Source of the DNA: a bacterium
Lineage (GTDB): Bacteria; Patescibacteriota; Microgenomatia; UBA1406; GWC2-37-13
Assembly (NCBI GenBank): GCA_021833625.1
Contig: JAKBEU010000002.1
Location: forward strand, 186,001 to 250,000
DNA: 64,000 nt
Direction: 5' to 3'
Below the pieces are notes generated by a model. The model searched no databases, had not been told where the DNA came from, and saw nothing but the letters and a program-made list of their open reading frames with translations. Each line of letters opens with the position of its first letter. Position 1 is the stretch's first letter. Below, one piece after another: positions 58,586 through 63,856 of this stretch. The translations under genes and the position numbers were made by a program.

Positions 58586-59347
58586 ATGGACATACATGAT
58601 TATATTCAAAAGGCTGATGGTATTGTATCAAATCACTTCACGGAGTATCTCAAAACAGCGCAGAACGTAGGTGTTTTGCTTTCGGGGGGGATTGACTCTT
58701 CGCTCATTACCACATATGTGGCCCACTTCTATAATAATGCCTATATTCTTTCCATGGGAACGGATAAAACAAAAGACAAACCCTTTGCTATGCAAGTTGC
58801 CAAACATTTGGGAAAAAAACTTGAATGGGTTTTCCTGTCGGAAGAAGAAATCGTACACACGCTGCCTGTTGTTAGAAAACTATTAGAAAGAGTCGGGGTT
58901 GAATGTTCGACAATGCAACTATCCCTTGCGACGGGATATTTCCTTATTTTTAAACATGCTCATGAACTTGGAGTTTCCGCAATCGTCACAGGGCAGGGGC
59001 CGGACATTCTATTTGCCGGATACCACAAATATAAGGGGATGAATAATGATGAACTTACGTCTCAAATAAGAAAAGATTTGGTCCTTCTTGAAACCGACAA
59101 AAAAAGAGATAGCGCCATGGCATCTTACTTTGGGATACAGCTTTTTAATCCCTATCTTGAAGAAGACTTTGTTGAATTTTCCCTTACCGTTCCTGCGGAA
59201 TATAAACTAAAAGATGGGATTGAAAAAGTGTTTATGAGAGAATGGGGAAGAGGGCGAGGGCTGCCTGAGGAAATAATCAATCGGCCAAAAAAAGCATTCC
59301 AATACTCAACGGGTTTGCAGAAAAAGATAGTGGAGCTTCACGCTTAA
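58586..59347 (+). CDS. Asparagine-synthase-like ATP pyrophosphatase without a glutaminase domain
   Basis: 253 residues. The PP-loop VLLSGGIDSSLITTYVA near 28-45 matches AsnB, and VTGQGPDILFAGYHKYKG near 135-152 and RPKKAFQYSTG near 235 are the downstream synthetase motifs. The N-terminal Cys2 glutamine amidotransferase domain (about 200 residues) of AsnB is absent. It may use free ammonia or act on another substrate. It overlaps the patatin gene by 4 bp at the stop codons. Confidence 0.8.
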   Translation: MDIHDYIQKADGIVSNHFTEYLKTAQNVGVLLSGGIDSSLITTYVAHFYNNAYILSMGTDKTKDKPFAMQVAKHLGKKLEWVFLSEEEIVHTLPVVRKLLERVGVECSTMQLSLATGYFLIFKHAHELGVSAIVTGQGPDILFAGYHKYKGMNNDELTSQIRKDLVLLETDKKRDSAMASYFGIQLFNPYLEEDFVEFSLTVPAEYKLKDGIEKVFMREWGRGRGLPEEIINRPKKAFQYSTGLQKKIVELHA

Positions 59348-61904: not shown

Positions 61905-63665
61905 TTATTTGACCGTCACGCTTTTTGCAAGATTTCTCGGCTTATCAGGGTCCGCGCCTCTCCCTATTCCAAGATAATATCCGAGGAGTTGTCCTACTGC
62001 GACATTATAAAAAATTGAAAAGGAAGCTCCGTTGTCGGGCGTTTCGATAAAGCAGTCAAACGCCTTATTATTCTCAGGTCCCACCCCGATAATATATGCG
62101 CCGCGGCTTTTCAGCTCTATTGCCGAGGATATGACTTCCTTTTGGACCGCATCATGCGCCGTAAGTGCGATGCACGGGGTTCCCGGTTGGATGAGCGAAA
62201 TAACGCCATGTTTTAATTCTCCTGACGCAAAACTTTCCGCATGCATATAGCTTGTTTCCTTGAGCTTGAGAGCAAACTCAAGAGCACTCGGATAATTTAT
62301 GTGTTTGCCGATGAGATAGATATGTTCGGTTTTAAGCAACTGTTTTGCGAGATTCAAAATTGTTTCACTTGTTTTTTTATTCTTCAGCCACAAAGGAAAG
62401 TCATGAATAAATGGTGCCGGATTTATTTTTGACAATTCACCTGTGAGTGCAAAGAAAATTCCAAGCTGTGCGGTAAATGCTTTCGTTGACACAACGGCTA
62501 TTTCCGGTCCGGCACCGACAGGTAAACAATAATCGGCGAGCCTTTCGAGCGTTGATCCCTGGGCATTTATAATAGCCACTATCTTCGCTCCGTTTTTTTT
62601 CGCCTGTTTTACCGCGAGAATAGTGTCTGCGGTTTCTCCGCTTTGGGAAATGGCAAAGACGAGTGATTTTTCCGAAACAAGAGGAGAGAACGGCTCGAAT
62701 TCGTATGCCCCGAAATTTATTGCTTCAACTCCTGCTTGTGCAAAAAGATACTGTGCAGCAAGCCCGCAATAGGAAGCGCTTCCGCATCCGATAAGAATGG
62801 GTTTATAACCTACTTTTATACGTTGTGCCACCTGTGCAATTGTCTTGTCTTTATGTGTCAGTGCGTTTGGTATCGTCTTTGCCTGTTCGTTTACTTCCTT
62901 TAACATGAAATGGGCATATCCCGCCTTTTCTGCCGCTTCGGCCTTCCAATCGATTTTTCTCACTACCAATTTTTTCTCTTTTTCAGTTGAGATGGAATAA
63001 AGGGAAACATCGTCATTCTTTTTTATATCTATTACCTCATCATCTTCCATAAAATAGGCGGTATTTGTTTTATCCAAAAAAGCCGTTGCGTCGGACGCAA
63101 TATAGATTGCATTTTTTGCAACACCAATGACAAGCGGAGACCCGTTCCGGCAGACGACAACCTCTCCCGTCTTTCCGTTTAACACCGCAATGGCATTTGA
63201 ACCGACAAGTTTTTTAAACGTATGGAGCGTTGCCTTGAAGAACGGTTTCGTCTTCGATTCCTCTTCGATAAGGTGCGCGATAATCTCGGTATCGGTTTCC
63301 GAAACAAAGACGTGTTTTTGGGTTTTCAGTTTTGATTGCAACTCCTGATAATTTTCGACAATGCCATTATGAATGACGGCAATGTGGTGTGAACAGTCAA
63401 GATGCGGATGAGCATTCGCATCCGTTACTCCTCCGTGTGTTGCCCAACGTGTGTGTCCGATTGCAATAGAACCCCGAGGAAGGGAAGTTGCGGCAGACCC
63501 GATTTTGCCGATATGTTTGTCAATCTTTATATCGTTTGAATCGGTTGCCTTAAGTGCAATACCCCAAGAATCGTATCCTCTGTATTCCAATTTTTTGAGT
63601 CCAGAAAGCACCGTTTGAGCCGCTTCATTTGTTTGATCGTTTATTACGCCGAAAATTCCGCACAT
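61905..63665 (-). CDS. glmS: Glutamine--fructose-6-phosphate aminotransferase
   Basis: Makes glucosamine-6-phosphate, the first step to peptidoglycan and glycan amino sugars. The 586-residue protein begins MCGIFGV with the N-terminal Cys nucleophile of the class II glutaminase, and has RGYDSWGIA near 37 and HTRWATHGGVTD near 75. Two SIS domains follow from about 260, with CGSASYCGL, SQSGETADTI near 335 and the C-terminal AKSVTV end. ATG 63665 places Cys at position 2. A longer start would destroy that. The leader has a glmS-type ribozyme. Confidence 0.97.
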   Translation of the reverse strand: MCGIFGVINDQTNEAAQTVLSGLKKLEYRGYDSWGIALKATDSNDIKIDKHIGKIGSAATSLPRGSIAIGHTRWATHGGVTDANAHPHLDCSHHIAVIHNGIVENYQELQSKLKTQKHVFVSETDTEIIAHLIEEESKTKPFFKATLHTFKKLVGSNAIAVLNGKTGEVVVCRNGSPLVIGVAKNAIYIASDATAFLDKTNTAYFMEDDEVIDIKKNDDVSLYSISTEKEKKLVVRKIDWKAEAAEKAGYAHFMLKEVNEQAKTIPNALTHKDKTIAQVAQRIKVGYKPILIGCGSASYCGLAAQYLFAQAGVEAINFGAYEFEPFSPLVSEKSLVFAISQSGETADTILAVKQAKKNGAKIVAIINAQGSTLERLADYCLPVGAGPEIAVVSTKAFTAQLGIFFALTGELSKINPAPFIHDFPLWLKNKKTSETILNLAKQLLKTEHIYLIGKHINYPSALEFALKLKETSYMHAESFASGELKHGVISLIQPGTPCIALTAHDAVQKEVISSAIELKSRGAYIIGVGPENNKAFDCFIETPDNGASFSIFYNVAVGQLLGYYLGIGRGADPDKPRNLAKSVTVK

Positions 63666-63704: not shown

Positions 63705-63856
63705 CATTGCATCGCATGTTCTTTTCAAACATGCGTTAAGTTGTGCAATGTGCAACTAAGGGTTTCCGCAGATTACTTCGATTGTTCTCACTCATGACAT
63801 ATGAGTGGAACGCCCTTTCCTCGTAACCCCCCATTTTTTCCGGGGGGCCACACGCT
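63705..63856 (-). ncRNA. glmS-type self-cleaving ribozyme in the glmS leader
   Basis: Read on the minus strand, all core parts come in the known order. Cleavage site A-GCG (A at 63856, G1 at 63855). P1 CCCCCC/GGGGGG (63847-63842 with 63832-63827). ACGAGG (63824-63819). P2.1 AAGGG/CCCUU (63817-63813 with 63762-63758). AUCGA (63782-63778). UGCGG, which pairs as a variant of GGCG with CGUG. P3 AGUUG/CAACU, P4 CGCAUGUU/AACAUGCG. A 7-bp pseudoknot CAUUGCA/UGCAAUG joins the P3 loop (63750-63744) to the strand after P4 (63711-63705). An extra hairpin (63784-63811) sits between P2.1 and AUCGA. It should be activated by glucosamine-6-phosphate. Confidence 0.9.

Follow-up and report, generated by a model that had tools for sequence, protein, structure and literature searches.

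Introduction

Does the leader of a glmS gene from one of the tiny-genome Patescibacteria encode a glmS ribozyme, and if so, how are its unusual active-site helix and its additional hairpin to be understood? The question was raised by the window, the whole 64,000-nucleotide stretch of DNA analysed here (GCA_021833625.1, contig JAKBEU010000002.1, positions 186,001-250,000 of the forward strand). It belongs to a 1.1-Mb, Roizmanbacteria-like genome (Patescibacteriota, Microgenomatia, UBA1406, GWC2-37-13), the closest named relatives by GlmS protein being Candidatus Roizmanbacteria (71% for L001, a locus of a congener). The putatively regulated gene is:

61905-63665, minus strand: glmS, 586 aa, starting MCGIFGV with an N-terminal Cys (translation, with the start at 63665; TIGR01135, 575 bits against a cut-off of 418).

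The candidate ribozyme lies upstream of this gene, in the 5' leader, at a distance of 39 nt. Two other observations were made in the window. The plus strand at 58586-59347 encodes a 253-aa asparagine-synthase-domain protein in which the synthetase part (PF00733) was recognised but a glutaminase domain was not. A Yfr1-like match within the glmS coding sequence (63360-63421, minus strand; E=0.47) was sub-threshold, with 21.4 bits against 38, and was taken as probably due to chance.

Results

The Rfam model of the glmS ribozyme (RF00234) aligned end to end with the leader, model positions 1-167 falling on 63867-63703 of the minus strand, with 28.8 bits (E=3.2e-5, 281 nt searched). As the gathering score is 37 bits, routine annotation misses the leader; under stricter filters RF00234 gave no match to it, whether 4 kb or the whole genome was searched. 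This low score counts against the reading that we prefer. An alignment (A1) was made of 25 glmS leaders extracted by RF00234 from other Patescibacteria, the window's genome and genus being left out, and a covariance model (R1) was made from it. R1 matched the leader with 67.7 bits (E=9.7e-14, searching the window and one relative's locus), and model position 1 fell on A63856, the proposed cleavage site. Genome-wide, the leader was the sole R1 match (E=1.5e-12). Since this independent model matches nowhere else in the genome, a chance match is ruled out. The original prediction of a glmS-type ribozyme was thus borne out, by a full-length but sub-threshold alignment to the Rfam model and decisively, at the predicted cleavage site, by the lineage model. 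The leader has the appearance of a genuine, though diverged, glmS ribozyme of a Roizmanbacteria-like genome.

All the parts that had been named (cleavage site, P1, ACGAGG, hairpin, AUCG, UGCGG, P3, P4 and pseudoknot) are present on the minus strand, and the leader holds the conserved core nucleotides (A/G1 site, ACGAGG, UCG, CGG). From 5' to 3', the features are as follows.

63855-63856, minus strand: predicted self-cleavage site, A(-1)63856 / G(+1)63855; the R1 match has its 5' end on A63856 and the RF00234 alignment puts AGCG here.
63849-63854, minus strand: P2.2 5' strand, C2 G3 U4 G5, U6 bulge, G7; partner 63771-63767 (covariation, 62 leaders).
63826-63848, minus strand: P1 hairpin, GCCCCCC / GGGGGGU (sequence, RF00234 alignment, minimum-free-energy [MFE] fold).
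63819-63824, minus strand: ACGAGG core, of which CGA (63823-63821) is the P2.1 5' strand (67/69 parsed leaders; 5/6 columns invariant in A1).
63813-63817, minus strand: P2 5' strand, AAGGG; partner 63762-63758 (pairing; A1 covariation).
63784-63811, minus strand: extra 28-nt hairpin in J2/2.1, with 11 bp, one bulged A and a 5-nt loop (MFE fold against shuffles).
63779-63782, minus strand: AUCG, of which UCG is the P2.1 3' strand (every parsed leader has AUCG or UUCG, as the parser required).
63773-63778, minus strand: P2.1-P2.2 pseudoknot loop, AAGUAA, short in the window (many relatives have a second extra stem here).
63766-63772, minus strand: UCUGCGG, P2.2 3' strand (53-56 are 63770-63767; RF00234 and R1 alignments).
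63758-63762, minus strand: P2 3' strand, CCCUU (R1 alignment).
63739-63757, minus strand: P3 hairpin, AGUUG / CAACU (A1 covariation).
63744-63750, minus strand: P3.1 pseudoknot, 5' part, CAUUGCA in the P3 loop (7-bp match to 63711-63705).
63713-63735, minus strand: P4 hairpin, CGCAUGUU / AACAUGCG, without P4.1 (sequence, RF00234 alignment).
63705-63711, minus strand: P3.1 pseudoknot, 3' part, UGCAAUG (pairs with 63750-63744).

By homology, the G of CGA within ACGAGG would be the active-site guanine. The GGG/CCC pairing of the original prediction held, while its label of P2.1 did not: this helix is P2 in the crystal nomenclature, and P2.1 is formed by the CGA of ACGAGG with the UCG of AUCGA, following the residue numbers of PMC7125110. 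The P3.1 pseudoknot of the window is an exact 7-bp match, equalled in 1 of 60 tail shuffles; across relatives it reached p<=0.05 in 14 of 61 leaders, a weak result caused in part by the inexact placing of tail ends. In the congeners L001 and L141, position -1 is C and not A (C/GCGUGUGG).

The leader folds strongly (z = -5.1), as might be expected also of a leader that senses glucosamine-6-phosphate (GlcN6P) or acts structurally with no cleavage at all, through occlusion of the start region, say, or an effect on mRNA stability. This we hold to be extremely improbable, given that both the window and its relatives retain the catalytically important nucleotides of the cleavage site, the active site and P2.2, that no terminator-like hairpin was found at the locus, and that the 39 nt before the ATG have no obvious pairing with it. 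Two results count against the self-cleaving ribozyme that we favour: no sigma-70-like promoter was recognised at the locus, and the pseudoknot-free minimum-free-energy fold does not show the active core.

Covariation of the helices

Across P1, P2, P3 and P2.2 together, 91.7% of the A1 cells were standard pairs; shuffling lowered this to 76.3%, and sliding the partners to 51% or less. The slid control matters too, because related sequences inflate such shuffle tests. Two-sided changes were found in 81 cells, with 25 expected by shuffling. In P2, 94.4% of cells were paired and four of the five pairs had compensatory changes; for P3 these figures were 95.9% and five of six. P2.1 is too nearly invariant for a covariation test.

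P2.2 consists in the published numbering of pairs 2-56, 3-55, 4-54 and 5-53, with position 6 bulged (Andreasson et al., PMC7125110); the window pairs are C2-G56, G3-C55, U4-G54, G5-U53 and G7-C52. Our parser fixed pairs 2-56 and 3-55 and restricted position 54 to A or G, and these are therefore not evidence. Positions 4-6 were able to pair with 54 and 53, leaving one of the three bulged, in 61 of 62 leaders against a shuffled mean of 51.3, and none of 5000 shuffles reached 61/62. The same held for distinct letter combinations, of which 14 of 15 fitted (9.3 in shuffles). Thirty-one leaders required the bulge at position 6, 13 at position 5 and 9 at position 4; the others were ambiguous. The claim that CGUG/UGCG replaces CGCC/GGCG with pairing kept is thus upheld, as P2.2 covaries and 61/62 leaders allow full pairing. 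Judged from this comparison, the unusual P2.2 is typical for Patescibacteria leaders and covarying, with a bulged base that appears to shift among positions 4, 5 and 6. Residues 4, 5, 6 and 53 have been proposed to covary on the basis of mutational interactions around residue 6, and a bulge able to shift is a hypothesis from the same mutational work (PMC7125110); the natural variants fit this hypothesis and bear directly on it.

The window has the commonest P2.2 form, UGU with UG, in which the bulge is at 6 and U-G and G-U stand in tandem. Bacillota, with CGCC/GGCG, have a stronger helix, which counts against the preferred reading, and mutagenesis of a core ribozyme construct showed a large loss of activity on changes at 5-53 (PMC7125110). 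The leader could then be a decayed glmS ribozyme that inherited the fold but, with too weak a P2.2 and a core disrupted by the inserted stem, now cleaves too slowly to be of use. Such decay would fit the sub-threshold RF00234 score, the tandem wobble pairs, the stem inserted into the core and the C at -1 in both congeners. We nevertheless consider it very unlikely. The UGU/UG letters occur in 26 of 62 leaders and are therefore the lineage standard, so that decay through loss of P2.2 is improbable when the same pairing is the commonest among relatives. Moreover, the window retains the core columns that are invariant in A1, the inserted stem persists from genus to genus although its sequence changes, and changes of A-1 have been reported to be better tolerated than changes of G1 (PMC7125110). 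These observations favour a diverged ribozyme over a decayed one.

Extra stems within the core

The 28-nt hairpin (63811-63784) had a minimum free energy of -13.1 kcal/mol against a shuffled mean of -2.9, and none of 5000 shuffles was as low. Measured as an unbulged helix it has only 4 bp (p=0.24); with the bulged A it has 11 bp. Its position is between the P2 5' strand and AUCG. We parsed 63 distinct Patescibacteria leaders, counting inserts of at least 10 nt at J2/2.1 and at least 12 nt in the P2.1-P2.2 pseudoknot loop. An insert was present at J2/2.1 in 34 of the 63, the window among them, and in the pseudoknot loop in 38; 32 leaders had both, 6 the pseudoknot loop only, 2 J2/2.1 only and 23 neither. 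Most of these inserts outfolded 95% of their own shuffles (30/34 at J2/2.1, 35/38 in the pseudoknot loop).

Unlike the 32 leaders with both stems, the window and L001 have the first only. Pairing is kept in close relatives: the congener L001 has GACCCGCC..GGCGGGUC, a stem of different sequence at the same place. In the pseudoknot loop, G049, another congener, has 79 nt and L001 6 nt, showing that stems come and go inside one genus. Nineteen Bacillota leaders exceeded the Rfam cut-off, and 17 of them were cleanly parsed; all 17 had 1-3 nt at J2/2.1, short pseudoknot loops and an AGCGCC start. With inserts in 0/17 at either point, the hairpin does lie outside the classic Firmicutes form, as had been noticed. 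Comparison of the leaders indicates that it is a lineage feature of Patescibacteria. Because the inserted stems vary in sequence and presence, we infer for them a role in folding or none, and not one in the active site.

A REP-like palindrome (CTTGTCCTGAGCGAACGAAGTGAGTCGAAGGA and variants) forms variable ribozyme stems in several Roizmanbacteria relatives, namely the pseudoknot-loop insert of L084, L095, L097 and L099 and the P1 of L001 (2260-2325). This suggests that a repeated element was taken up into ribozyme loops of these bacteria.

Distribution in Patescibacteria

Genomes in which RF00234 exceeded its cut-off numbered 22 of the 72 in the family; samples from the class and the phylum gave 43 of 373 and 20 of 380, respectively. 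Strict filters were applied, so that these counts are minimum values. The glmS ribozyme class is therefore widespread in Patescibacteria. R1 matched 30 of the 72 family genomes, and comparison with the coordinates of GlmS matches placed 29 of the 30 directly 5' of glmS. The remaining one, in G018, is near a contig end, and the glmS of that genome begins at the very start of a different contig. Both same-genus genomes had one R1 match each, in front of glmS. G753, which holds L001, and G048, a genome of the window's genus, had ribozyme matches identical in coordinates and score and are apparently the same assembly.

How often the class occurs in CPR had been left open in the original prediction; it is common in Patescibacteria, and the hairpin called extra is lineage-wide, so the locus is less exceptional than was implied. 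In this phylum the core commonly appears to have its active-site helix re-paired and to bear an additional stem or two. Such re-paired, stem-bearing leaders are scored poorly by the standard Rfam model.

Discussion

Homology, position before glmS, conserved core nucleotides, compensatory change and the recurrent J2/2.1 stem together assign the leader to the glmS ribozyme class. We are highly confident in the explanation as a whole: a diverged glmS ribozyme whose predicted GlcN6P-triggered cleavage at A63856/G63855 would limit glmS mRNA, with an extra stem that is most likely neutral for the chemistry. Its most likely function, by homology, is self-cleavage triggered by glucosamine-6-phosphate and lowering glmS mRNA. 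The leader RNA would bind this product of GlmS as a cofactor and undergo self-cleavage at the A63856/G63855 bond. This would leave a 5'-hydroxyl on the downstream mRNA, which RNase J would probably degrade, and GlcN6P would thereby limit its own synthesis. The extra stem would project from the joining segment, most likely leaving the chemistry unchanged and affecting folding or stability. For the class, this mechanism, including mRNA decay by RNase J1, is described in PMC7125110. A gene of the RNase J family is present in the genome (TIGR00649, 484.8 bits, cut-off 400), as it is in 64 of the 72 family genomes; its link to glmS mRNA decay is one that we infer.

The window locus shares with the Bacillota-type ribozyme (RF00234) its gene context, the A/GCG cleavage site, a full-length alignment and the identical order of P1, ACGAGG, P2, P2.1, P2.2, P3, P3.1 and P4. 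It differs in P2.2 (CGUG/UGCG with a U6 bulge, against CGCC/GGCG with A6), in the 28-nt stem at J2/2.1 where Bacillota have 1-3 nt, in a P4 without P4.1 and in a score below the Rfam cut-off. With other Patescibacteria ribozymes (L081-L137) it has in common the insertion point at J2/2.1, the commonest substrate type, AGCGUGUGG, and the P2.2 partner UCUGCGG.

McCown, Roth and Breaker (2011, RNA 17:728) reportedly described additional stems within the catalytic core of Deinococcus-Thermus glmS variants; these belong to a different phylum. As Rfam already recognises many relatives, and in view of those reported core stems, the window locus is taken as an additional member, with variant features, of an established class. 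Our literature search, which reached a minority of the subscription papers, found no paper linking glmS ribozymes with Patescibacteria or CPR. Whether the Patescibacteria ribozymes form an undescribed structural sub-class, defined by the J2/2.1 and pseudoknot-loop stems and by a P2.2 bulge moving among 4, 5 and 6 with changes at 53 and 54, seems to us evenly balanced. If they do, the bulge shift would be a natural counterpart to rearrangements so far inferred from engineered mutants.

The Rfam model misses part of the Patescibacteria glmS ribozymes (22 against 30 of the 72 genomes). The inserted stems show core sites that tolerate additions, information of use in engineering and in tests of folding models. 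By homology, these findings would mean that bacteria with tiny genomes possess a ribozyme that uses a metabolite.
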